A DNA stretch of 22,781 nucleotides from a virus (IMGVR_UViG_3300020205_001214:1-22781), one strand, 5' to 3'. Counted from the stretch's first letter, positions 565-19,288 are shown. The notes: generated from the sequence alone by a model not told the origin. Numbers and translations are program-made.

Positions 565-1313
565 GCAAAGATGCAATTTCGCGCTCTTATATGGAAGCAA
601 TGAAGGCTGAACATGCAGTGAAGCCATACAGAAACATCCACCGAGTTACAATCAATGGAACAGGGCGTGAAGGCTCCATCGGCAAAGCCATTGTTGAAAA
701 ACTTTGGAAAAGCGAAAAGGTGAATGCTGTCCACGAAATGATTGGCGATGTGCGAGATGACACAATCGTTTTCGATCCTGAAATTGATGTTCTAGTCATG
801 TGTCATGGTGCCGTGCATATGGATTGGCTTGAAAATGCACCATCCCAAAAGGTGCGCGAGGTTATTGACGTCAACCTGACTGGCTCAATTAACCTCATTC
901 AGAGTTTTGTCCGCGACACCATCAATGCTCCGCATAAAAAGAAAATCATCTCAATCGGCTCCATGGCCTACCGCAACGTGCTGAATGGCTCGGCAGCTTA
1001 CTGCGCAAGCAAAGCTGGCCTCGCTCATTACATCCGCTGTGCCGCATGGGAACTCGCCCCTAAAGGCTATGACGTGTATTGCGTTCATCCTTCCAACACT
1101 GAGGGAGCGCCCATGTCAGAAGATACAATTCAAGGCCTGATGCGTTATCGCGGTCTTGATCGTGCTGCTGCGGAAGCCTACTGGGGTGCAGTTCTGCCGA
1201 GGGAAAACTGGCTGCAACCAGATGACATTGCGGACATGGTCATGTTCCTCATTGGAGGCAATTCAGCCTATCTCTCCGGCGCACAGATTGATCTGATCGG
1301 AGGCCAAAGATGA
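561..1313 (+). CDS. Short-chain dehydrogenase/reductase (SDR) family protein
   Basis: A 250-aa protein of normal classical-SDR length, expected to be a cytosolic NAD(P)(H)-dependent oxidoreductase with a Rossmann fold. The nucleotide-binding glycine motif appears as GTGREGSIG (residues 33-41), a spaced variant of TGxxxGxG. CHGA (81-84) replaces the usual NAGx. The catalytic tetrad seems complete: N105 in VNLTG, S134 in SIGSMA, and Y147/K151 in YCASK. HPSNTEGAPM (176-185) stands where many SDRs have PGxxxTxM, and the C-terminus GAQIDLIGG matches the usual 'G..i.vdGG' end. The substrate cannot be read from sequence. It overlaps both neighbours by ATGA and sits between a DUF6378-like gene and the polymerase genes, so it is probably co-transcribed with replication functions. 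A role in modified nucleotide or nucleotide-sugar chemistry, or in altering host metabolism, is only a guess. Confidence 0.85.
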   Translation: MSKDAISRSYMEAMKAEHAVKPYRNIHRVTINGTGREGSIGKAIVEKLWKSEKVNAVHEMIGDVRDDTIVFDPEIDVLVMCHGAVHMDWLENAPSQKVREVIDVNLTGSINLIQSFVRDTINAPHKKKIISIGSMAYRNVLNGSAAYCASKAGLAHYIRCAAWELAPKGYDVYCVHPSNTEGAPMSEDTIQGLMRYRGLDRAAAEAYWGAVLPRENWLQPDDIADMVMFLIGGNSAYLSGAQIDLIGGQR

Positions 1314-1840
1314 AGACGCTCGTATTCGACACAGAGACGACCGACCTTATCAAGAACAAGCTCCAGTCTTTGGACAAGCAGCCTCACATAATTGAACTCT
1401 TCGGTGTCAGCTTGGATCTTGAGGGCAACGAGCTCGATCATTATCATTTCATGTTTGATCCGGGGTTTGTTATATCCGACGAGATAATAAGGATCACTGG
1501 CATAACACCTGACATGCTCGCAGGGAAGCCAAAATTCAAGCAACACGCTGAAGAGATAAAGCGCATCATCGAGTTTCATGATGAGGTGGTCGCGCACAAT
1601 CTTAGCTACGATCGTGCCGTCGTAGACTTCGAGATGAAGCGCGCAGGCATTGAAGTCGAATGGCCTGAGTTAATTTGCACCGTTGAGGCGACCGAGCACA
1701 TCAAAGGGTTCCGCTTGAACCTAAATGGACTGCATGAGCTTTTGTTCGGAGAGCCGTTCGCTGGTGCGCATCGTGCAGAGAACGACGTGCGTGCTTTGGC
1801 GAATTGCTTCCGTGAATTGAGAACAACAGGGAACGTTTGA
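1310..1840 (+). CDS. DnaQ-like DEDDh 3'-5' exonuclease (probable proofreading subunit)
   Basis: A 176-aa single-domain exonuclease. Exo I is FDTETT with D7 and E9, Exo II is AHNLSYD with D101, and Exo III is AHRAENDV with H154 and D159. These are all five residues of the DEDDh class, typical of DnaQ/DNA polymerase III epsilon. The family removes 3'-terminal nucleotides using two metal ions. There is no C-terminal extension equivalent to the alpha-binding tail of E. coli epsilon, although the final 15 residues could serve. ATG 1310 overlaps the SDR stop and is preceded by GGAGG (1299-1303). The stop overlaps the ATG of the DnaE-like polymerase by one base (TGATG). Such tight coupling to a polymerase whose PHP domain looks inactive makes proofreading of that polymerase the likely job, rather than RNA degradation. 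Confidence 0.9.
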   Translation: MKTLVFDTETTDLIKNKLQSLDKQPHIIELFGVSLDLEGNELDHYHFMFDPGFVISDEIIRITGITPDMLAGKPKFKQHAEEIKRIIEFHDEVVAHNLSYDRAVVDFEMKRAGIEVEWPELICTVEATEHIKGFRLNLNGLHELLFGEPFAGAHRAENDVRALANCFRELRTTGNV

Positions 1841-4680
1841 TGCTCCGAATTCGTAGCGGGTACAGCTTCCGCACCGCAGCGGGAATGATCGATGCGGTAA
1901 TGGAACGTCTCCAAGAAGTCGGCGCAACCTATGCACCGATCTCAGATCGCGCATCAACCTTCGGCTGGGTTCGCTGGAACAAGTTGGCAAAGAAAGCTGG
2001 CCTCAAGCCACTGTTCGGATTGGAGCTAGCAGTCACCGGTTCTTTGCATGCAAAGAAACCTGCAGTCGATTACTGGACCTTCTTTGCCAAAGACGATTTG
2101 AAAAGCATCAACGAACTTTTGTACCTTGCAACATCTCAGTTTAGATACGAGCCGTTGCTCAGCTACGAGCAAGCTCTGCGAGCTGATGGGGTGATCAAGG
2201 TCGTTGGCTCAAGGTCGCTGCTTGACCAGATACCGCCGCAAGAAGATCTGTATGTTGCACTTTCTCCATCCGCCGCCAAGGGCTATGTCGCCGAGGCACA
2301 AAAGATGGGCCACAAGTTCGTTGCCAGCTCTGACAACAAATACGTCAGCAAAGGCGATGAAGGGTTCTACGAAGTTCTTTGCGGACGCGGCGCCAGCACA
2401 CAAACGTACGCCCAACATATCTTGTCGGAGGGCGAGTGGCGCAAGGCGGTGGCTAGAGTTGCCGCTCCGGATCTCATAGATCTTTCCTGGACCACGGCAG
2501 CCCACATAGCGGACAAATGCAAAGCCAGTCTTAAAATGGCAACGCTCCTTAGTCCCGAGAAGCCACAGACCTTGGAGCAGATGTGCCGAGTCGGAGCCAC
2601 CAAGCTCGGCATCAACCTTGCCGATCCGGTGTATGAAGCGAGGCTCCTGCGCGAGATCGCGCTGATCAAGGATAAGCAGTTCGAGGATTATTTTTACATC
2701 ATCGCAGACGTGATGCAGTTCGCCCGTCAAAAGATGATCTGCGGTCCAGCACGCGGCAGCTCATGCGGGTCACTGGTTTGCTATTTGCTTGAGATCACCA
2801 CGATCGACCCTATACCATTCGATCTTCTTTTCGAGCGGTTCATTGACATCACCCGAAACGATTTGCCCGACATCGACATCGACTTCTCCGACCAGAAGCG
2901 CCACATGGTGTTTGAATACATGGAGAAGAAATACGGCCGCGACCACATTGCTCGCCTCGGAACAGTTGCTTTGTTCCGGCCGCGCTCGGCGATTGATGAG
3001 GCAGGGACAGCTTTGGGTGTCCCCAAATGGCTATGTGACAAGGTGCTAGACTCTTTGATCGTCCGCTCGGGCGGTGACTCACGAGCTCTTCAGACACTCG
3101 AAGACACATTCAAAACCACACCAGCCGGGAGGGAATTGCTTGAAAAGAACCCTGAGATACTTATCGCAGCGCGCATGGAGGGTCACCCACGTCACTATTC
3201 CCAACATGCGGCAGGAATTGTTGTCACTGAAACTCCGGTTACAGACTATGTGGCCGTTGATGCGCGTACGGGCGCGACTCAATGCGACAAAAAAGACGCC
3301 GAAGAATTAAACCTCCTCAAGATAGATGCACTGGGCCTGACACAGCTGTCGGTGTTTGAAGATGCATTGACGATGGCTGGCAAGGACATTCATTTCCTTG
3401 AGAGGCTGCCCTTTGATGATAAGGCATCGTTCGAAACCCTAAACAAAGGGCAGTTCTCCGGCATCTTCCAGTTCAATGGTCCGGCGCTCCAGTCAATATG
3501 CAATCAGATAAAAGTCGAGAGCCTTGACGACATCGTCTCGATAACCGCACTCGCACGTCCTGGGCCAATGGCCTCCGGTGGAACAAACGAATGGACAAAA
3601 CGTAAGAATGGGATCTCAGCAGTTGTTTATCCACATCCGACATTTGAACCTTACCTCAGGGAAACTCTTGGCATCGTGGCATATCAAGAGCAAGTTATGC
3701 AGATCGGTCGCGAGATCGGAGATCTGTCTTGGGAGGACGTCACTGCCCTCCGCAAAGCAATGTCCAAGAGCCTTGGCAAAGAATATTTCGATCAGTTCGG
3801 CGATCGTTTCAAAGCAGGTGCAATAAAGAAGAACATACCGCCCGAAGTTCTTGAAAAGGTTTGGGACGACTTGTGCGCTTATGGAGCGTGGGCTTTCAAC
3901 AAATCACATTCGGTGGCTTACGGGATCGTCAGCTATTGGTGCTGTTATATGAAGGCACATTTTCCGTTTGAATTTGCTGCTGCGACTTTGACCCATGAGC
4001 CTGATCCGGCAAAGCAGATCATGATCTTGCGAGAGATGGCAGCAGAAGGTTTCGATTACATTCCGGTTGATGCAGATCTTTCAACAGACAAATGGACTGC
4101 TGGCGTCAAGGACGGAAAGAAAGTTCTTGTCGGTCCAATCCAAAATGTGAAGGGCGTAGGGCCAAAGCTCGTTCAGCAAATCATGTCGGCTCGCGTCAGA
4201 GGTGAGCCAGTCCCGGCGAGAGCTTCAAAGTTGCTGAACAACGCCACCACAGAGATCGATAGTCTTTGGCCGGTGAGGAATGCATTCAAGAGGCTTTTGC
4301 CTGACCCCAGTGAGCGCAACATCCATACACCTCCTTTGCCTGTTATAAAAATGCAGACGAAAGGTGAAGACTACAAGGCTCTGGCATTCGTTGTCGTGCA
4401 GCAGATCAAACCAAGAGATGAAAATGAAGCAGTGAACGTAGCAAAGCGCGACGGCAAATTTTTAACTGGACCAACATCCAGTTTGAATCTCACAATATCA
4501 GATGACACAGACCGAATATTTGCAAAGATAGATCGGTTTGCTTTTGAACGGATCGGCAGAGAAATCGTAGAACGCGGAAGACCGGGCAAAGCCCTCTATG
4601 CAATGAAGGGAACTGTCCCGAGAGGGTTCAGGATGCTGCGGGTTGAAGCTGTAAGATTCATCGGGTTCATGGACGAATAG
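1840..4680 (+). CDS. dnaE: DnaE-like family C DNA polymerase (Pol III alpha type)
   Basis: A 946-aa replicative polymerase, shorter than bacterial DnaE (about 1160 aa). The N-terminal PHP domain (about 1-250) begins LRIRSGYSFR, where active PHP domains carry HxH, so its metal site looks degenerate. Palm motifs are clear: GPARGSSCGSL, then PDIDIDF with catalytic D344 and D346, and KIDALGL with third acid D496. ARPGPM, GIVAYQEQVMQI and FNKSHSVAYG also match the Pol III alpha core. GPIQNVKGVGPK is the helix-hairpin-helix segment at about 765-776. The roughly 150 remaining residues do not show an obvious OB fold, tau-binding region or consensus clamp-binding motif, which explains the short length. 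The TTG at 1837 is also possible as a start, but ATG 1840 has AGGGA upstream and gives a TGATG junction with the exonuclease. The product is probably the main phage replicase, paired with that exonuclease. Confidence 0.95.
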   Translation: MLRIRSGYSFRTAAGMIDAVMERLQEVGATYAPISDRASTFGWVRWNKLAKKAGLKPLFGLELAVTGSLHAKKPAVDYWTFFAKDDLKSINELLYLATSQFRYEPLLSYEQALRADGVIKVVGSRSLLDQIPPQEDLYVALSPSAAKGYVAEAQKMGHKFVASSDNKYVSKGDEGFYEVLCGRGASTQTYAQHILSEGEWRKAVARVAAPDLIDLSWTTAAHIADKCKASLKMATLLSPEKPQTLEQMCRVGATKLGINLADPVYEARLLREIALIKDKQFEDYFYIIADVMQFARQKMICGPARGSSCGSLVCYLLEITTIDPIPFDLLFERFIDITRNDLPDIDIDFSDQKRHMVFEYMEKKYGRDHIARLGTVALFRPRSAIDEAGTALGVPKWLCDKVLDSLIVRSGGDSRALQTLEDTFKTTPAGRELLEKNPEILIAARMEGHPRHYSQHAAGIVVTETPVTDYVAVDARTGATQCDKKDAEELNLLKIDALGLTQLSVFEDALTMAGKDIHFLERLPFDDKASFETLNKGQFSGIFQFNGPALQSICNQIKVESLDDIVSITALARPGPMASGGTNEWTKRKNGISAVVYPHPTFEPYLRETLGIVAYQEQVMQIGREIGDLSWEDVTALRKAMSKSLGKEYFDQFGDRFKAGAIKKNIPPEVLEKVWDDLCAYGAWAFNKSHSVAYGIVSYWCCYMKAHFPFEFAAATLTHEPDPAKQIMILREMAAEGFDYIPVDADLSTDKWTAGVKDGKKVLVGPIQNVKGVGPKLVQQIMSARVRGEPVPARASKLLNNATTEIDSLWPVRNAFKRLLPDPSERNIHTPPLPVIKMQTKGEDYKALAFVVVQQIKPRDENEAVNVAKRDGKFLTGPTSSLNLTISDDTDRIFAKIDRFAFERIGREIVERGRPGKALYAMKGTVPRGFRMLRVEAVRFIGFMDE

Positions 4681-9501: not shown

Positions 9502-9972
9502 GTGGGTCGCCTTCCCAAAAAAGAATCCAGTGGATACACAAGCAAAGAAGTTGTTGCTGATGTTTTCCGCTCAATCCTAGCCAGAATGTCTAATGGCGAG
9601 GCTCTGACTAAAATACTAAAAGAAGAAGAACAGCCAGACTATTGTGTGTTCATAAACTGGGCTCAAAGCTCAGAGGACATGTACAAAGAATACGCGCGAG
9701 CACGACAGATTCAGGCTGATTATTTCGCTGATCAAACCGTTGAAATTGCTGACAGTGAAACCGACAACAACCGTGCGCGCAACCGCATGGACGCTCGGCG
9801 CTGGCATGCTTCAAAGATCGCACCCCGCAAGTACGGCGACCGCGTTGTTCAAGAGCACACCGGCGAGGGCGGAGGTCCGATCGCAATTGCTTCGCTCAAC
9901 CTTAAAGGTTTGAACGACGACGAGTTGCTCGCTATGCAGAAGATGCTTAGCAAGGCAAAGAGCAAAGAATGA
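9502..9972 (+). CDS. terS: Terminase small subunit (DNA packaging)
   Basis: A 156-aa protein with a helix-turn-helix-like N-terminal half (VVADVFRSILARMSNGEALTKILKEE...), then MDARRWHASKIAPRKYGDRV, typical of phage small terminase subunits. The C-terminal tail ELLAMQKMLSKAKSKE is helical and basic and could contact the large subunit. It should bind the packaging site as an oligomer and deliver DNA to the motor. No ATG precedes the conserved region. I chose GTG 9502 because GGAGCAGGAG (9486-9495) lies 6 bases upstream. TTG 9484 would overlap that ribosome site, and the first ATG (9586) would remove the DNA-binding part. The stop overlaps the large-subunit start (ATGA). Base composition rises sharply in GC from about 9780 on. 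Confidence 0.85.
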   Translation: MGRLPKKESSGYTSKEVVADVFRSILARMSNGEALTKILKEEEQPDYCVFINWAQSSEDMYKEYARARQIQADYFADQTVEIADSETDNNRARNRMDARRWHASKIAPRKYGDRVVQEHTGEGGGPIAIASLNLKGLNDDELLAMQKMLSKAKSKE

Positions 9973-11540
9973 ATGCTCCTTTAAGTCCAGCAGTCATGCT
10001 GCAAATGGTCAATTGGGAGCGCGATCGTCGGGCTGCGTCCGCGTCGCTGTACGAGTTCGTCAAGCAGAGCTGGCACGTCGTTGAGCCGGGCATCAACTTT
10101 GTCCCATCCTGGCACATCGAAGAGATCTGCGAGCATCTTGAAGCTGTGACGAGTGGCGAGATCACGCGCCTGTTGATCAACATCCCACCTCGTCATTCGA
10201 AATCGACCATCGTCTCGGTCATGTGGCCGATGTGGGAGTGGATCACCCAGCCACAACAAAAGTTCTTGTGCGCTTCTTACTCCAGCACGCTCAGCATCCG
10301 AGACAACCTGAAGGCTCGGCGCCTGGTCCAGTCGCCCTGGTTCCAAGATCGTTGGGGCCATCTGTTCCACTTGGCCGGTGACCAGAACGCCAAGCAGCGG
10401 TTCGAGAACACCGAGACGGGCTACCGCATCGCGACGTCCGTCGGCGGTACGGCGACCGGCGAAGGTGGCTCGCGTCTGATCCTCGACGACCCGCACTCGG
10501 CGCAGGAGGCGCAGTCTGACGTCATGCGTCAGTCGGCGATCGAGTGGTTCAACATGGTGTGGTCAACCCGGTTGAACGACCCCAAGCGCGACGCCATGGT
10601 CATCGTCATGCAGCGCCTGCACGAGCGCGACATCAGCGGCCTGATCCTCGATGAGATGTCGGGTTGGGAGCACATCTGCATTCCGGCAGAGTGGGACGGT
10701 GTTGCCCGCAAGACCAGCCTCGGCGAGTACGATCCGAGGACCAAGAAGGGCGAGTTGATCTGCCCAGAGCGGTTCGGCGAGAAAGAAATCGCATCCCTGA
10801 AGGCGCGGCTGGGAGCTTATGGCACATCAGGCCAGCTGCAGCAAGACCCAGCACCATCAGAGGGTGGAATCCTCAAGACAAAGTACTTCAACATGTGGCC
10901 TTCTGACAAAGGTCTGCCGCCATTTGAGTACATCCTTCAGTCGTACGACTGCGCGTTCACTGAGAAGACGACCGGCGACCCGACTGCCTGCACTGTCTGG
11001 GCGATCTTTACCCATATGGGTGAGCGCAACGCAATGCTGATCGACGCTTGGGACGACCATCTATCTTATCCCGAGCTCAGAGCACGGGCGATCAAGGATT
11101 GGTCAACCGAGTACGGCGGCATGACCAAAGACTCACCGCACAGCCGTGCGCGGAGACCTGACCGGATATTGGTCGAGGCAAAAGCATCTGGCCAGTCTCT
11201 GATTCAGGACTTAAGATTGGCCAGAGTTCCTGTTGTCGGATACAATCCGGGCAATGCCGACAAAGTGTCCCGTGCTCACCAAGCTGCACCAACTCTGGAA
11301 TTAGGCTTGCTTTGGATACCGGAATCAGGCAAGAATAGAGGGCTGATGGTTAGTTGGGCAGACAGTTTCATCAAGCAGATGTCCAAGTTCCCTGTCGCAG
11401 AGCACGACGATTATGTGGACACATTCTCTCAGGCCATCATTTACTTTAAGAACGACGGATGGTTCGATCTGCCACAAGCCAAAGACATCGACGACGTGAG
11501 GCCCAAGAGCGAACCCAAGATCAACCCGTACGCAGCGTGA
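9969..11540 (+). CDS. terL: Terminase large subunit (packaging ATPase-nuclease)
   Basis: A 523-aa packaging motor. The ATPase half has a deviant P-loop, NIPPRHSKST (71-80), as in many phage large terminases, and Walker B RLILDDPHS with acids near 173-174. A coupling-type segment VIVMQRLHERD follows at about 211-221. The RNase H-like nuclease half shows SYDCAFT with D327, ILVEAKASG with E403, and EHDDYVD with acids at 480-484, the expected acidic cluster. It pumps DNA into the prohead through the portal and cuts concatemers. The length is normal. ATG 9969 overlaps the small-subunit stop. By hand count the ATPase half is far richer in G+C (up to about 70% in places) than the nuclease half (about 50%), suggesting mosaicism inside the gene. 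Confidence 0.96.
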   Translation: MNAPLSPAVMLQMVNWERDRRAASASLYEFVKQSWHVVEPGINFVPSWHIEEICEHLEAVTSGEITRLLINIPPRHSKSTIVSVMWPMWEWITQPQQKFLCASYSSTLSIRDNLKARRLVQSPWFQDRWGHLFHLAGDQNAKQRFENTETGYRIATSVGGTATGEGGSRLILDDPHSAQEAQSDVMRQSAIEWFNMVWSTRLNDPKRDAMVIVMQRLHERDISGLILDEMSGWEHICIPAEWDGVARKTSLGEYDPRTKKGELICPERFGEKEIASLKARLGAYGTSGQLQQDPAPSEGGILKTKYFNMWPSDKGLPPFEYILQSYDCAFTEKTTGDPTACTVWAIFTHMGERNAMLIDAWDDHLSYPELRARAIKDWSTEYGGMTKDSPHSRARRPDRILVEAKASGQSLIQDLRLARVPVVGYNPGNADKVSRAHQAAPTLELGLLWIPESGKNRGLMVSWADSFIKQMSKFPVAEHDDYVDTFSQAIIYFKNDGWFDLPQAKDIDDVRPKSEPKINPYAA

Positions 11541-11996: not shown

Positions 11997-14900
11997 ATGA
12001 CCCGAGATGACTCCCTAACTGAAAATCTTTTGCGTTATGTTGACCGAAAGTTCGCGGAGGGCGGCGCTGTGAAGGGCTACGCAGTCGGTGGCGATGTCAC
12101 GGACGAGGGGCTTGAGAAGCTCTTCGGTGATTACTTTGGCCGGGGGTCTGATCCGGGCGGGTTGAAGTATTGGAAAGACACAGCTGCGGAAAACCAATTA
12201 ACCCTTGAAGACATCGGGCAGAAGTTTTCTGAATCCCAAGAGTATCAAGATCAGTTCGCGGGTCCTGGAGTTTCCTCAAACAGGTTCGCTCCGACTTCTG
12301 ATCCGAGCGAGTGGAAAACCTATTACGGTTATAAGCCGACAACAAACGACTACACCAAAATGCTACAGGCCGCTCTCGGTGAGGTCGGTGTCAGCCCAAG
12401 CTCAAATCAATACCGAGCTGTTTACGAAGCATTGGGCAATCGCGCTGCGGCCAATACCATATCTCCTGACTATGGGCGAGGGAACAACACCATTGCGAGC
12501 CTCATTACTCCGCAACAGATCCATGGTGTTAATCCTAAGAGCATGACGCGGGTAAATTCATATCTTCGCAGCACAGACCCTGCGACAATTGCAGCTGTGG
12601 CGGCAGCGCGTGCATCTCTAGATGCATACCTAAGAGAAGGTCAAAACCGTGTATTGACAACACAAACAGATTGGAGAGGGTTTCAGGACGGCGAGCCGTC
12701 ACCTGGCGTAACTCTGAGGGGCAACCCTTTCTTGAATCGCAATGTCCCTGATGAGGGGATGATTTCGTTGTACAACACTTATTACGACGCAGAGGATCGG
12801 CCGGACATTGCCGCACGGTTAGCGGACCTTCAACGGCAGGCCAACGCAATTTGGACTCCGCCAACCCCGGAGCCAAGACCGACAGACGCTGTGCTCGCCC
12901 AAGTTCAAACCTTCACCGATGAAGACGGCAGGAAATTTACCGAGAGCGATGGCGTTAGACGATACCTTGACGAAGAAAACCCGCTCGACACCAATCAGAC
13001 AGCAGGCCGCGTTCAAACAGCCAACGTCGAACAAAACGTCGGCGGTCAGAACGTCAACAACACTATCGGCGACGACTATGACTATACGTTTATCCCGAGC
13101 GTAACGCCGGGTGCGAACACAGATCTAGGGTTCAGCACATACGACCCCAATTCCTTTAAGGTCTACAGAAACGACTCAATTGACCAGAACTCCATCCAGC
13201 AGAACCTGCTCAACGACAGTACGCGCAACTGGCAACAGGACTTCAACAACGTAGTCGGCGGTCAGTTCAACATGAGCAACCCCGGCTTGGTTGGCGGGTA
13301 CAACTCAAGCAACATCGGCGGGTTCGACTACTCTGGACTGGGCAACAGCCTCGGCAATGTCGGCGCGACTTCAGGGTTCGGTCTTAACACCGGATGGGAC
13401 TTCGGCGGTGGTTGGGGCTTTGCTGAGGGCGGCGAGGTCAACTTCAAAAAGATGTTTGAGGGCGATTCACAAGCGATGCAGGAGCGTGCTAGGGAGCTCG
13501 CTCGTGAGGCTTACTCAAAAGGCTATAGCAGCCTAGGCAAAAAGAAAGCCGAGGAGTGGGAGGCGCTTGCAAGCAAGTACAATCTCCCTCTGAGCGTCGG
13601 GCCATTCGACAACTACGAAGATCAATACAGCGACGCAGTCGGCAAATGGCAACGGGGGTTGTCCCCCAAGCAGCGAGTGCAAACTTACGATGAGGGTGGT
13701 CCAGTCAAAGCCGACCTAGCGGTTGAGGAGCTCACCAACTTACAGAAAATACTCGCTGGCTCTAACCCAGCAGCCAACGTCGCGCCGTTCCAGCTCGATT
13801 TGGGTGGAGGTGCGCAAGCTCGTGGGCGTGTTGTCCAGGCTGGTCCTTACATTGATGTTGGCGGCGGCATTACGCTCCCATTGCGTGATGTCATGCTGAT
13901 GCTGGACGCCAGCTATGGCAAGGTTCCCGGAACCGACATGAAGCCCAACATCTCGGTCAAGGGCGGGTTGCGCATACCTTTTAGCGAGGGCGGTCCGGTT
14001 ATGCCCTCAACGGACCCTATGGAAGGGTTTAGCATTGAGCCTGAAGCTCGCCCTGCTATACAGCCAAAGTCCCGCGTTGGGACGGGCATCGGCGGCGCGT
14101 TGTCGCGCATGGGCCAGGGGATTTCCGACTACGTTACCGCTGATCCTGCTCCGTCGCCGCGTGAGTTGCTTGAGGCTCGCATGAGCGAGCAAGCTCGATC
14201 GGCCATGGACCTTTCTGGCCTAGCTTTGCCGGATCGCGCAGTAGACGTTAAGGCTGACGAGTTTGGTTCGTATCCTGTGGACGCTGAGGGCAATCGCCTG
14301 AAGTATCTGCGCCGGTCATTGTTGCTGCCGATGGTTAGTGGTGAAGACGAATCCCGTCTCGCCATGCCGGGGTTCGTTGAAATGGCCGGCAACCTGATGA
14401 GTGGCGTTGCTCCGGCAGTCAAGGGCTCTGGTGCAGTGCTTGGCTCTGGCCCAGTGCGCCGTGGCGAAAAAACGTTGGCTGATCTTGTCGACACCTATGG
14501 CGTTAAGAAGCCGGGTGGCAACTGGATAGAAAGCAGCGTTGACAGCAAAATTGATTCTCTCCCTGCTTTGAGTGCTTCGCAAGACAGTGTTTCTTCGGAA
14601 GCACTTGCCAAATGGGCAGACAGCAAGCTCAAAGGTTACATCAAAAACCAGCTTGGCACAGTTGCTGATCCTTTGATCGACGTAGCTGAAGTAAAAGGAA
14701 AGCTGCACATACCGGATGAGCGAATAGAAAATTTAGCCAGATCTGCCAAGCCAACCCGTGGGGATTCTTTTTCAACAGGACGAGCTCAAACTGGATACAA
14801 TCCCAATTTGATTGGCGAAACAGATCTTAGTCGTTCTTGGGAAAAGTTAAGTCAAGATTTAATAACCAGAACTAAATACAAAGACCTCATATACCCAGAA

Positions 14901-16037
14901 ACGATCCCAGGCATGCCGGTTCTTCCTCCTGAATCGCAAGTTAACAAAGCATTTTTCACCAATAGAGATTTAGGGTTCGACCATCTAACCGACGAGTTAA
15001 AGAACGCAATGGACCCAAACAGTGGTCTGCCGCGTAATCTCCAGATCGAGCCGGAAAAGCTCGAAAGGTTCTCGATGAAGCAGGCTGTCGAGCACGTTAT
15101 CAAGATCAATGACTGGCGCGAGAAAACCAGAGCTGAAGCGAACCTTAAAATTGCACAGAACGCAGCAACAGTCCCGGTTAAACAATACGACATTGTCCCA
15201 GGAACAAATTATCCAAATGATAAAGGTCTGTCTTGGGTCCAGATAAAATCTTCAGGAAACAAAGACGATCTTGAAAAAGCTCTCAAATACGAGGGCGACG
15301 CCATGGGCCACTGTCTCGGTGAAAGCTCATATTGCCCGCAGGTCGAGGCAGGCAAAACCGAAATTTTCTCATTGCGCGACAAAAAGGGCCAGCCGCACGT
15401 AACGGTCGAAGTTAAACGAGTCAAAAACCTTGCCAATCCTAACATCAATTTCTTGGATGACTTTCCGGATTCAATAGTTAACAAAGCTATGGAAGAAGCG
15501 CACGATATTGCCGTTGAAAGAGTTATCGACAACAGGAGGGATGAATATATAGATCAGGCTTACACGATTGTTAAAAGTAAAAATCCAAAACTCGATGAGG
15601 ATTCTGAAGAGTTTTCTTATAAAATTCAAGATTTGACGGCAGTTTTTGCAAAGAAGCAGGCTCCAAGAGAGCGTGAGTTCCATGATTACATTAATGAAGA
15701 ATTTAGAAATATTGAGAAGCGAGAGATTGAGAAAATGAGGGAGAGCGGAAATGACGTCGTAACTATTAATCAGATAAAAGGCAAAAGCAACGCAAAGCCT
15801 GTTGAAGAATACATTCCATTCGTTCAAGATTTTATCAAATCACAAAATTGGTACGATGTTGGAGAAATTAAAAATGCTGACATGATTAAAGCATACAAAG
15901 GTCAGCGCCTACCTGGGATTAATCAGCAGATCCCTCCTGGATACTACACGTTTAGAGATTTAGAAAAACTAGGCGATGAAAGTGGTATGTCTTCTTCTGC
16001 AATTGCAGAATGGATGAAAAAGCTTCGTCAAAACTGA
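11997..16037 (+). CDS. Large multidomain virion-type protein with DUF4214-like N-terminus and PcfJ-like C-terminus
   Basis: A 1346-aa protein between terminase and portal. Residues about 34-88 (LFGDYFGRGSDPGGLKYW..., FSESQEYQ) resemble a DUF4214 unit. Residues about 122-180 hold ALGEVG...YEALGNRAA, faintly like SleB-type hydrolases. Residues about 430-475 are Gly/Asn-rich. Four FAEGGAV-like motifs occur at 19-25, 475-481, 564-570 and 662-668. The stretch between the last two has beta-strand-like alternation (YIDVGGGITLPL, GGLRIPF). From about 1072 the sequence resembles PcfJ-like domains: MGHCLGE (1103-1109), FSLRDKKGQPHVTVEVK and INQIKGKSN (from 1258). The size suggests an injected internal-virion or tail-associated protein, which is inference. 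No signal or membrane segment is evident. Base composition is patchy, with AT-rich blocks near the 3' end. The start is fixed by GTGGTGATCC at the previous stop. Confidence 0.8.
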   Translation: MTRDDSLTENLLRYVDRKFAEGGAVKGYAVGGDVTDEGLEKLFGDYFGRGSDPGGLKYWKDTAAENQLTLEDIGQKFSESQEYQDQFAGPGVSSNRFAPTSDPSEWKTYYGYKPTTNDYTKMLQAALGEVGVSPSSNQYRAVYEALGNRAAANTISPDYGRGNNTIASLITPQQIHGVNPKSMTRVNSYLRSTDPATIAAVAAARASLDAYLREGQNRVLTTQTDWRGFQDGEPSPGVTLRGNPFLNRNVPDEGMISLYNTYYDAEDRPDIAARLADLQRQANAIWTPPTPEPRPTDAVLAQVQTFTDEDGRKFTESDGVRRYLDEENPLDTNQTAGRVQTANVEQNVGGQNVNNTIGDDYDYTFIPSVTPGANTDLGFSTYDPNSFKVYRNDSIDQNSIQQNLLNDSTRNWQQDFNNVVGGQFNMSNPGLVGGYNSSNIGGFDYSGLGNSLGNVGATSGFGLNTGWDFGGGWGFAEGGEVNFKKMFEGDSQAMQERARELAREAYSKGYSSLGKKKAEEWEALASKYNLPLSVGPFDNYEDQYSDAVGKWQRGLSPKQRVQTYDEGGPVKADLAVEELTNLQKILAGSNPAANVAPFQLDLGGGAQARGRVVQAGPYIDVGGGITLPLRDVMLMLDASYGKVPGTDMKPNISVKGGLRIPFSEGGPVMPSTDPMEGFSIEPEARPAIQPKSRVGTGIGGALSRMGQGISDYVTADPAPSPRELLEARMSEQARSAMDLSGLALPDRAVDVKADEFGSYPVDAEGNRLKYLRRSLLLPMVSGEDESRLAMPGFVEMAGNLMSGVAPAVKGSGAVLGSGPVRRGEKTLADLVDTYGVKKPGGNWIESSVDSKIDSLPALSASQDSVSSEALAKWADSKLKGYIKNQLGTVADPLIDVAEVKGKLHIPDERIENLARSAKPTRGDSFSTGRAQTGYNPNLIGETDLSRSWEKLSQDLITRTKYKDLIYPETIPGMPVLPPESQVNKAFFTNRDLGFDHLTDELKNAMDPNSGLPRNLQIEPEKLERFSMKQAVEHVIKINDWREKTRAEANLKIAQNAATVPVKQYDIVPGTNYPNDKGLSWVQIKSSGNKDDLEKALKYEGDAMGHCLGESSYCPQVEAGKTEIFSLRDKKGQPHVTVEVKRVKNLANPNINFLDDFPDSIVNKAMEEAHDIAVERVIDNRRDEYIDQAYTIVKSKNPKLDEDSEEFSYKIQDLTAVFAKKQAPREREFHDYINEEFRNIEKREIEKMRESGNDVVTINQIKGKSNAKPVEEYIPFVQDFIKSQNWYDVGEIKNADMIKAYKGQRLPGINQQIPPGYYTFRDLEKLGDESGMSSSAIAEWMKKLRQN

Positions 16038-16060: not shown

Positions 16061-18550
16061 ATGGCTGAACCTATTGAAGACGAAAAAGAAATTGGCGAAA
16101 CTCTCGCTTTGCCTGATGATGACAGCGGTGTTGAGGACACCGAAGATGGCGGAGCGATCGTCAAGCTTGAAACAGAGCAGGATGATCGCGAGCGTCTTGC
16201 CCACTTCGCCAACATCGTCGATGAGGTCGATCAAGATGAGTTGAAGATGGCGGTCAGCGATCTTCTCGATAAGATCGACCGCGACAAAGAAGCCCGCGAA
16301 AAGCGCGACAAGCAGTACGAAGAGGGTCTGCGCCGCACGGGTCTGGGCGACGACGCTCCCGGTGGAGCGCAGTTTAACGGCGCCAATAGGGTCGTTCATC
16401 CGATGCTGGTCGAGGCGTGCGTCGATTTCAGCGCCCGATTCATGAAAGAAGTGTTTCCGCCCAACGGTCCTGTGAAAAGCAAGATCTACGGCGAGAATGA
16501 TCGGGCAAAAATCGACAAGGCCACTCGCAAAGCCACATTCATGAACTGGCAGGTGACCGAGCAGATGATCGAGTTCCGGTCGGAGCTTGAGCAGCTCTCG
16601 ACCCAGCTGCCTCTCGGTGGTGGTCAATACATGAAATTCATGTGGGATGCCCAGCGCAGGCGTCCTATTTCTGAATTTATAGCAATCGACGACATCTATT
16701 TGCCGTTTGCAGCCACAAATTTCTACACTGCCGAGCGCAAAACGCACGTTCAGTACATCACCAAGATGGAATACCAGCGCCGGGTAAAGTCCGGCATGTA
16801 CATGGACGTCGATCTCGGGGAGCCGGGCGATCCTGAGTTCAGCAAGGCGAGCCAAGCCAACGACAAAATCGAGGGCCGCAAGGAAACCAGCTACAACGAA
16901 GACGGTTTGCGGACCATTTTCGAGATCTACACCTATTTGGAGTTTGACGAGGGAACATCGCCCTACATCCTGAGCATTGATAAGTCCACCGGCAAACCAC
17001 TTTCCCTGTATCGCAACTGGGATTTGGATGATGAATCAAAGAATGAACTGGACTGGATCGTCGAATTCCCGTTCGTTCCTTGGCGCGGTGCGTATCCAAT
17101 CGGTCTGACCCACATGATTGGCGGCCTGAGTGGGGCTGCGACGGGTGCTCTGCGGGCATTGCTTGATTCTGCCCACATCCAGAACATCCCGACGCTGTTG
17201 AAACTGAAGGGTGGCCCCAACGGTCAGACAATCAACCTTCAACCCACTGAGGTCGTCGAGATTGACGGCGGTGCATTGGTCGACGACGTGCGAAAGATCG
17301 CTATGGCGATGCCTTTCAACCCGCCGAGCCAAGTCTTGTTCAGCCTTCTGGGGTTCCTCGTCGAAGCAGGCAAGGGCGTAGTCCAAACTTCTTTCGAAAA
17401 GCTGGCTGACGCCAACCCAAATCAGCCTGTCGGAACGACGATGGCGCTGATTGAGCAGGGGATGGTCGTATTTAGCTCGATCCACTCCCGTCTGCATGGT
17501 TCAATGGCACGTTGCTTCAAAATCCTTCACCGGATCGATGCAGCCTACATGACTGAAGAGGACGTAGAGGCCCAAGACGCCGGGATTGAGATTAATCTGG
17601 CAGACTTTGATGGTCCGCTGGACGTTGTTCCGGTCAGCGATCCGGCAATTTTCAGCGAGACACAGCGTTTTGCTCAGATGCAGGCAATTATGCAGCGTGC
17701 TGCTGCAATTCCTGGCATGTACGACCCGCGCAAGGTCGAAGAGATGTTCTTGCGCACGATGAAGGTTCCTGCGGACGAGGTTCTTGCGCCTGTTCCGGGC
17801 AGCGATGACATTGACCCAGTCAGTGAGAATGTCGCAGCAGCGATGGGCAGACCTGTCTACGTTCTGCCCCGGCAGGATCACCTTGCCCACATCATGCTTC
17901 ATATGAAGTTCCTTGAATCGCCTGTCTTTGGCTCCAACCCTGTCATCATGAGGACGTATATCTATCCGATGGCGACTCATCTGCGGGACCACCTGCTGAA
18001 TTACTATCTGCAGGAGTCACATGAGGCTGTTGATCGGGCACAGAACGAGAACCTGATTAAGGAAGAAGCACAAGAGCAGGCGAAAGTTATCATTCAAGTT
18101 CAACAGTTTATCGAACAACAGCTTGGTGGATTCTCTCAGCAGCTCGTCCAAATTGATCAGGCTGCCCAGCAGTTCAAGCCCCAGCCTCCGATGCCGCCTG
18201 ACAACAGCATGAAGATCGCTGAGATGAATGTTGGCATCCAGCAGCAGGCTCTCCAGCAGAGGGCTCAGGCTGATCAGCAACGGCTGCAAATCGAGCAGCA
18301 GAAACTCGGCCAGCAGATGCAGGCCAAGCAAGAAGAGCTCGCAGCCAAGCAGCAGCAGGCACAGGTCGAACTGCAACGCGAGCAGTTGCGCCAGTCGTCG
18401 GAGGATCAACGCACCGCTGCTGAGTTGTCGATCCGTCAGAGGATGAACGAAGCTGACAATCAGACAGCAATGGATCTCGCCCAGCTTGAGATTATCTCAG
18501 GCGAGAAGTTTTCTGTGAGCACCGGCACAGGCATCAATCCCGGTTCTTGA
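16061..18550 (+). CDS. Portal protein (head-tail connector)
   Basis: An 829-aa portal of the long type known from podovirus-like and environmental phages. The N-terminus is acidic (about 1-60). The core holds VVHPMLVEACVDFSARFMKE near residues 112-131, WRGAYPIGL...GGLSGAATGALRALLDSA (about 344-370), and VGTTMALIEQG in the stem region (about 457-467). From about 667 to 812 the chain is extremely rich in Gln and Glu (QQALQQRAQADQQRLQIEQ), predicted as a long coiled coil, likely the crown/barrel that points into the capsid. As a dodecamer it forms the DNA channel and docks terminase. AAGGA (16049-16054) precedes ATG 16061. The Q-rich tail codons create low-complexity DNA that gives spurious ORFs in other frames. 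Confidence 0.92.
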   Translation: MAEPIEDEKEIGETLALPDDDSGVEDTEDGGAIVKLETEQDDRERLAHFANIVDEVDQDELKMAVSDLLDKIDRDKEAREKRDKQYEEGLRRTGLGDDAPGGAQFNGANRVVHPMLVEACVDFSARFMKEVFPPNGPVKSKIYGENDRAKIDKATRKATFMNWQVTEQMIEFRSELEQLSTQLPLGGGQYMKFMWDAQRRRPISEFIAIDDIYLPFAATNFYTAERKTHVQYITKMEYQRRVKSGMYMDVDLGEPGDPEFSKASQANDKIEGRKETSYNEDGLRTIFEIYTYLEFDEGTSPYILSIDKSTGKPLSLYRNWDLDDESKNELDWIVEFPFVPWRGAYPIGLTHMIGGLSGAATGALRALLDSAHIQNIPTLLKLKGGPNGQTINLQPTEVVEIDGGALVDDVRKIAMAMPFNPPSQVLFSLLGFLVEAGKGVVQTSFEKLADANPNQPVGTTMALIEQGMVVFSSIHSRLHGSMARCFKILHRIDAAYMTEEDVEAQDAGIEINLADFDGPLDVVPVSDPAIFSETQRFAQMQAIMQRAAAIPGMYDPRKVEEMFLRTMKVPADEVLAPVPGSDDIDPVSENVAAAMGRPVYVLPRQDHLAHIMLHMKFLESPVFGSNPVIMRTYIYPMATHLRDHLLNYYLQESHEAVDRAQNENLIKEEAQEQAKVIIQVQQFIEQQLGGFSQQLVQIDQAAQQFKPQPPMPPDNSMKIAEMNVGIQQQALQQRAQADQQRLQIEQQKLGQQMQAKQEELAAKQQQAQVELQREQLRQSSEDQRTAAELSIRQRMNEADNQTAMDLAQLEIISGEKFSVSTGTGINPGS

Positions 18551-18703: not shown

Positions 18704-18897
18704 ACTTCGAAACACAACTTCTGGACCGGCTCAAGGCAGCACAAAGAGACTTCGCTCTCGATGCCTTGAGCCGACCGCAAGAACGCAATGCTTTTGAGTA
18801 TGGGTATCGCGTTGGTCTGGTTGCCGGTTACGAGGCAGCCATCAACATACTTTTGCAGTTAACCAATGAGGAGAAATATGGAGAACGAGACCTTTGA
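18700..18897 (+). CDS. 65-aa small conserved phage protein
   Basis: Starts with GTG 18700 overlapping the previous stop (GTGA). No ATG lies in frame at the conserved beginning. The sequence NFETQLLDRLKAAQ, then RNAFEYGYRVGLVAGYEAAIN and LLQLTNEE, is amphipathic and helical. 'EYGy..G...GyeaAi..l' patterns occur in small head-region proteins of many phages, recalled without a known role. It overlaps the GroES-like gene by 20 bases, so translation is likely coupled. Confidence 0.68.
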   Translation: MNFETQLLDRLKAAQRDFALDALSRPQERNAFEYGYRVGLVAGYEAAINILLQLTNEEKYGERDL

Positions 18898-19288
18898 GAA
18901 CGCCATTGCAGAGGCCTTCCCGCCAGTGTGTCCTGGCATCCGGCCTTTCGGTAGCCGCGTTCTGGTGCAAATCCGCACTCCAAAAAAGAAGTCTAAGGGC
19001 GGCATCCACTTCGTCGAAGACACTAGAGAAACTGAAAAGTGGAACACTCAAATCGCCAAAGTTATTTCGATGGGTCCGGGTGCATTCCGGAACCGGACAA
19101 CTTTGGAACTTTGGCCCGAAGGCGGCTGGTGCACGCCTGGGGAGTTTGTTCGTGTTCCTAAATACGGCGGCGACAGATGGGAAGTCGCCATCAATAGCGA
19201 CGACAGCGCCATGTTCGTGATCTTTAATGATCTCGATCTTATCGGCGATGTAATCGGTGATCCCCTCGTAGTGAAAGCATTCATCTGA
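18878..19288 (+). CDS. GroES-like co-chaperonin
   Basis: A 136-aa protein with the GroES (Cpn10) layout. PFGSRVLVQI near residues 27-36 is the first strand. KKKSKGGIHF (about 40-49) is the mobile-loop region, and IAKVISMGPGAF is the central 'gkVvavG.G' strand. WCTPGEFVRVPKYGG matches 'vk.GD.V.f..y.G', and FVIFNDLDLIGDV is the last strand. The mobile loop carries GGI-H-F, comparable to the GGI(V/L) that contacts GroEL. The length exceeds bacterial GroES (about 97 aa), as in some phage versions. It would cap the host GroEL ring to help fold phage proteins. It sits just ahead of scaffold and capsid genes, so capsid protein is the likely client, as with T4 gp31. GAGGAG (18868-18873) favours ATG 18878 over ATG 18866. 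Confidence 0.85.
   Translation: MENETFENAIAEAFPPVCPGIRPFGSRVLVQIRTPKKKSKGGIHFVEDTRETEKWNTQIAKVISMGPGAFRNRTTLELWPEGGWCTPGEFVRVPKYGGDRWEVAINSDDSAMFVIFNDLDLIGDVIGDPLVVKAFI

Follow-up and report, generated by a model that had tools for sequence, protein, structure and literature searches.

Protein P0001, the 1346-aa product of an open reading frame (ORF) in the slot between the terminase large subunit (TerL) and portal genes of a virus, is, judged by its context, most likely a phage polyvalent protein, and it ends in a PcfJ module with a predicted GNAT-like fold. Genes of this type are accessory, because the slot is empty or otherwise filled in related phages. The fuller reading, in which P0001 would be an accessory injected polyvalent protein whose PcfJ end acts as a GNAT-fold acyl- or aminoacyl-transferase on a host protein, has about an even chance of being right.

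The window, meaning the whole stretch of viral DNA analysed, is the 22.8 kb record IMGVR_UViG_3300020205_001214:1-22781 (22,781 nt). The P0001 ORF runs from an ATG at 11997 to a stop at 16037 with no internal stops (0), and the reading frame reported in an earlier note on this DNA is intact. Its gene order is TerS, TerL, a small gene, the P0001 ORF, portal, GroES, a putative scaffold, two small genes and the major head protein; the scaffold is a guess by position, as this gene has no family match. The GroES co-chaperonin gene (18866-19288), with the portal on one side and the scaffold on the other, is kept in nearly all examined relatives. Elsewhere in the window, a Short-chain dehydrogenase gene (561-1313) lies within the replication region, and a phage-encoded DNA polymerase III alpha subunit with a PHP domain (1310-4680) adjoins a separate RNase_T exonuclease. 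At the PcfJ position of P0001, PHROGs offers only two families, both of unknown function. Features are collected in Table 1.

Table 1. Features of the P0001 ORF and its slot (window positions).
Feature	Position	Strand	Evidence
Whole ORF, 1346 aa, polyvalent-type protein, TerL-portal slot (P0001)	11997..16037	+	intact ORF; synteny in relatives
TerL, left border of the slot	9969..11540	+	phrog_38, E 8e-92
Portal protein, right border of the slot	16061..18550	+	phrog_1216, E 2.5e-8; homologous to other phages' portals
Linker motif FAEGGAV, residues 19-25	12051..12071	+	motif scan
Linker motif YAVGGDV, residues 28-34	12078..12098	+	motif scan
DUF4214-like stretch, residues 41-87	12117..12257	+	19.2 bits, below curated cut-off of 23.2
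Linker motif FAEGGEV, residues 475-481	13419..13439	+	motif scan
Looser linker motif YDEGGPV, residues 564-570	13686..13706	+	loose pattern only
Linker motif FSEGGPV, residues 662-668	13980..14000	+	motif scan
PcfJ module, residues 830-1346	14484..16034	+	conserved unit in relatives; AlphaFold mean pLDDT 89.9, pTM 0.79
Predicted GNAT-like core, residues 1079-1299 (b1-a1-a2-b2-b3-[insertion]-b4-a3-b5)	15231..15893	+	model; best 50 VIA-align rows all GNAT enzymes; compact bacterial homologue agrees
Invariant His1105-Cys1106	15309..15314	+	62/62 relatives
Helical insertion, b3 to b4, residues 1152-1250	15450..15746	+	model; variable in phages, lacking in bacterial PcfJ
QIKGKSN loop after b4, residues 1259-1265, candidate acyl-donor loop	15771..15791	+	Q, K, G, K, N invariant 62/62; model position

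Profile searches did return the PcfJ match whose absence the earlier note had named as grounds for dropping its PcfJ-like C-terminal domain: Pfam PF14284 aligns with residues 1094-1141 at E 1.3e-7 and 32 bits (curated cut-off 25). Relatives were gathered by running a phage-specific profile of the PcfJ core on IMG/VR; 80 of the 324 found were retained and, together with a small number of further phage and bacterial sequences, formed 65 clusters. H1105, C1106, S1125-L-R-D1128, P1133-H-V-T1136, E1138, Q1259, K1261-G-K1263 and N1265 are invariant in all 62 aligned relatives, and the motif residues singled out earlier (H1105, C1106 and the QIKGKSN loop) are thus real. The core residues (yEG, M-HC-G, S-R, Q-KG) are likewise invariant across phage and bacterial PcfJ rows, P0001 included. 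Conservation in the whole-protein alignment sets in near KKPGGNW (KP-GGNW motif), ~275 residues upstream of the HC pair, and the module is therefore placed at about residues 830-1346; the PcfJ part stands, at ~517 residues instead of the ~275 first proposed. A helical insertion of variable length separates VTVEVK from INQIKGKSN and is lacking in compact bacterial PcfJ proteins. Two arrangements among the relatives may be mentioned here: one contig (L061:3739-7478) has an adjoining tandem pair of diverged PcfJ ORFs of 618 and 626 aa, and in several bacterial or gut contigs (L101, L102-L105, L009) the PcfJ domain stands at the front of a protein whose later part resembles leucine-rich repeats.

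The predicted fold of the module points to GNAT enzymes. The AlphaFold2 model, built with 58 sequences, runs from residue 1079 through b1, a1, a2, b2, b3, the insertion, b4, a3 and b5, followed by helices; the order b1-a1-a2-b2-b3-b4-a3-b5 is the GNAT topology. It did not turn out to be a fold clearly belonging with known tail or internal-virion proteins, the other result that the earlier note had set against its own proposal. In a VIA-align comparison with the PDB, the best 50 rows were all GNAT enzymes, headed by HAT1 (Z 7.4, 165 residues, 6.3 A), with another HAT1 entry superposing 111 residues at 3.5 A (Z 7.2). Domain matches can be blurred in a long chain, so a compact bacterial PcfJ protein (L101) was also modelled. 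Its core reached a pLDDT of ~90-95, the whole chain being poor, and its best 50 VIA-align rows against the PDB were again all GNAT enzymes (HAT1: Z 8.8, 105 residues, 3.2 A), the top Z values of both models (7.4 and 8.8) lying near the tool's 'middling' level. The two models are not wholly independent, since the L101 alignment has rows in common with the first. Foldseek on its own was weak (best E 0.07), though many entries on its list are GNAT-type enzymes, FemX, FemA and L-PGS among them; the best matches among viral models were mostly annotated as PcfJ-like. Sequence-profile similarity between PcfJ and six GNATs was absent (hhalign probability 0.2%), and a PDB sequence search with the PcfJ profile gave no convincing relative. 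Because such profile similarity is absent, the claim is one of a GNAT-like fold, which the models make highly probable, and not of proven GNAT membership.

Whether the fold is catalytic can be considered from its conserved residues. The GNAT donor-loop consensus after b4 is Q/RxxGxG/A. Among the 65 clusters, about 25 carry QIKGKGN or QIKGKAN and match this consensus, while the others, including 35 with QIKGKQN and P0001 with QIKGKSN, have Q or S at the final consensus position. In the mechanism we propose, QIKGKxN in the b4-a3 loop would hold the donor, either CoA or aminoacyl-tRNA; the acceptor side would consist of the SLRD and HVTxE strands and of the invariant His-Cys pair that lies between helices a1 and a2; and the substrate would be a host protein modified early in infection. 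The C-terminal module is predicted to have a minimal GNAT-type fold, on which the two models agree. The partly kept donor-loop consensus and the lack of sequence similarity to active GNATs would also suit a domain that, within an injected polyvalent protein, binds a host factor such as tRNA without catalysis; however, the polar residues H, C, R, D, H, T, E, Q, K and N, of active-site type, are invariant in 62/62 relatives, and a mere binder seems unlikely. On the modelled fold and these residues, the balance tips slightly towards PcfJ being an active acyl- or aminoacyl-transferase.

In every relative with both flanking genes identified, the PcfJ ORF sits between TerL and portal; a few contigs have an additional ORF alongside it, and ~15 contigs of this PcfJ-selected set have no recognisable TerL or portal of the window's type. 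To avoid selection for PcfJ, phages were also sampled by portal only, giving 80 contigs, of which 53 with both borders visible formed 45 clusters (95% portal identity). The slot is empty in 26 of these 45 clusters and filled in 19, with PcfJ in 13 of the filled ones; in none of the 45 does PcfJ occur outside the slot. Isolated phages with an empty slot include Caulobacter phage RW, Roseobacter phage CRP-902 and Planktothrix phage Pag-Yong1, and in the metagenomic phage ctpbd312 the slot holds a GP88-domain protein. Two contigs with portals 93% identical to that of the window (L003, L008) have an 1864-aa protein and no PcfJ; in L004 the protein of 1864 aa has ART-PolyVal plus a methyltransferase domain, and ART-PolyVal also occurs in L005. 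Where PcfJ is present, its pairwise identity tracks that of the portal (Mantel 0.80, against 0.89 for TerL and portal; 23 phages with all three genes), which led us to reject free swapping of the module among phages. Inheritance therefore appears mostly vertical, with gain and loss: the module would be handed down mostly with the head genes and lost or replaced in some lineages.

This pattern of presence and absence bears on the suggestion, also made in the earlier note, of a novel head or tail component. P0001 adjoins the portal and is large, and its SLT- or amidase-bearing slot homologues recall internal virion proteins such as T7 gp16, all of which would suit a structural or ejection-channel component in which the PcfJ part is incidental. 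Such a role is disfavoured because related phages that share the portal, GroES, scaffold and head genes often lack this gene, which is therefore not core; the strong conservation of the PcfJ module also speaks against it, and we consider it very unlikely.

Pfam scans of relatives indicate the company that PcfJ keeps. It occurs in one chain with ART-PolyVal (L029, L054 and others), InPase (L032), LPD23 (three members) and, in one member, a GDSL lipase domain; where a slot protein lacks PcfJ, it has SLT transglycosylase, amidase, ART-PolyVal or DUF7178. In P0001 itself PcfJ is the sole recognised effector domain, whereas L029, L054 and L032 have several. The fusion of PcfJ to a large late-gene protein, which the earlier note had described in this window, is real and widespread among relatives, so that the window is not unique; the DUF4214 start reported with it is only sub-threshold. 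The ART-PolyVal, InPase and LPD domains derive from a survey of polyvalent proteins, whose main text argues for packaging and injection from fusions and context, places phage GNAT modules next to ART, and makes no mention of PcfJ (PMC5512222). P0001 is grouped with phage polyvalent proteins because the partner and replacement domains in its relatives are polyvalent modules, and it is encoded among virion genes, with TerL and portal on its flanks.

From the domains fused to PcfJ, or replacing it, in relatives, we infer that P0001 is most likely loaded into the capsid and injected along with the phage DNA. The same context, with ART-PolyVal, InPase, LPD23, SLT and amidase as partners or replacements, favours the delivered effector that had been suggested earlier. 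Late expression follows from the late-gene position whether the protein is packaged or not, and P0001 could accordingly stay inside the producing cell, modifying the host or helping assembly; yet the murein hydrolase and ART-type modules found in the same slot better suit entry functions, which makes an unpackaged protein quite unlikely. Packaging and injection remain the preferred reading. Besides phages, plasmids and some bacterial genomes carry PcfJ; among cellular genomes it is sparse (4/76 in one class-level sample).

The N-terminal regions of P0001 are less readily assigned. The resemblance of its start to DUF4214 (PF13946, E 0.0013) is weak and falls under the cut-off (Table 1), and it recurs sub-threshold in L004, L005 and L024. 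Residues 98-317 (12288-12947) form a conserved domain common to the same three contigs (47-52% identity), with no Pfam match. A GE...NR pattern recalling murein hydrolases made SleB/Hydrolase_2 (PF07486) a candidate for this domain, which was dropped for now given the lack of a Pfam match and an hhalign probability of 0.1% against two SleB proteins, both profiles being shallow. Residues 564-668 (13686-14000), between two GG motifs (GPYIDVGGGITLPLRDVMLMLDASYG...NISVKGGLRIPF), have the look of amphipathic beta strands; that they serve in a membrane or as a channel is only a guess.

A short glycine motif, [FY]AxGGxV, recurs in P0001 and in other slot proteins. In its wider form, [FYW][AS]xGGx[VIL], it has four copies in P0001 against 0.02 expected from shuffling. 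Among the 63 PcfJ proteins, 44 carry the motif and the total is 67 copies. This density of 0.90 per 1000 aa compares with 0.07 for 214 other ORFs on these contigs and 0.02 for shuffled sequences, and none of the 67 lies inside the PcfJ core, although the core makes up 20% of the length. In the portal-sampled set, PcfJ-less slot proteins included, the motif is again enriched, at 2.3 against 0.11 per 1000 aa. The enrichment covers 11997-16037 and the slot proteins of L109-L187 and L029-L100, other ORFs being nearly devoid of the motif. In three contigs (L016:15390-16745, L135:15701-16750, L176:19079-20074), ORFs of 330-450 aa that follow the head genes carry 2-4 copies, and these may be further packaged proteins. 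We read the motif, from its distribution in the sequences, as probably marking linkers between modules: the modules would be set apart by [FY]AxGGxV spacers, the motif being possibly a processing (cleavage) site, a packaging signal or a structural turn. The idea that the His-Cys pair is a protease acting on the GG linkers was set aside, the fold being GNAT-like and the motif occurring in PcfJ-less slot proteins too.

PcfJ-like annotations of phage proteins are already present in databases, and GNATs in polyvalent proteins are known. The earlier claim of an undescribed domain combination holds insofar as the pairing of PcfJ with polyvalent modules is unreported in the open-access text searched; such text likewise yielded no account of the GNAT-like fold of PcfJ, of the TerL-portal cargo slot or of the linker motif, and no paper assigning PcfJ a function. 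With the predicted fold, a widespread family that had no assigned function acquires one that can be tested. Filled and empty slots in related phages offer a natural comparison of the role of injected proteins in infection, the other occupants (ART, InPase, murein hydrolases) amount to a list of possible early effectors and anti-defence proteins, and the [FY]AxGGxV motif offers a specific candidate for a packaging or maturation signal in proteins of this kind. More tentatively, the whole PcfJ family of phages, plasmids and bacteria might be an unrecognised GNAT-fold branch with an unusual His-Cys active site, perhaps using aminoacyl-tRNA or another acyl donor, which aquatic phages keep in the TerL-portal slot as an injected protein-modifying enzyme.

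Compared with the GNAT superfamily (HAT1, MYST, ESCO, GNA1), PcfJ agrees in predicted strand and helix order and in its best 50 structural matches, and differs in lacking detectable sequence similarity, in its unusual invariant His-Cys and in the long insertion before b4. The internal ejection proteins of the T7 gp16 type are also very large late proteins, like the slot homologues with SLT or amidase domains; their gene position differs, and the likeness comes without any evident sequence relationship. Within PF14284, P0001 scores above the curated cut-off and has the HC, S-R, T-E and Q-KG core in common with bacterial members, but it differs in its helical insertion of ~100 residues, in a conserved extension at the N-terminal end of the module and in having PcfJ embedded in a 1346-aa late phage protein. 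The 'PcfJ-like protein' of phage DSL-LC04 (OR003939) also occupies the TerL-portal slot and is 28% identical to P0001 residues 865-1330; it is 825 aa long, with a much shorter and different N-terminal part, and the paper describing the phage contains no analysis of it (PMC10611076). Set beside the polyvalent proteins as described in the main text of Iyer et al. (2017, PMC5512222), P0001 has no second recognised catalytic domain, but it is similarly large, multi-module, late and near terminase and portal, and its relatives fuse PcfJ to ART-PolyVal, InPase and LPD23 in a class of proteins where GNAT modules are already known.
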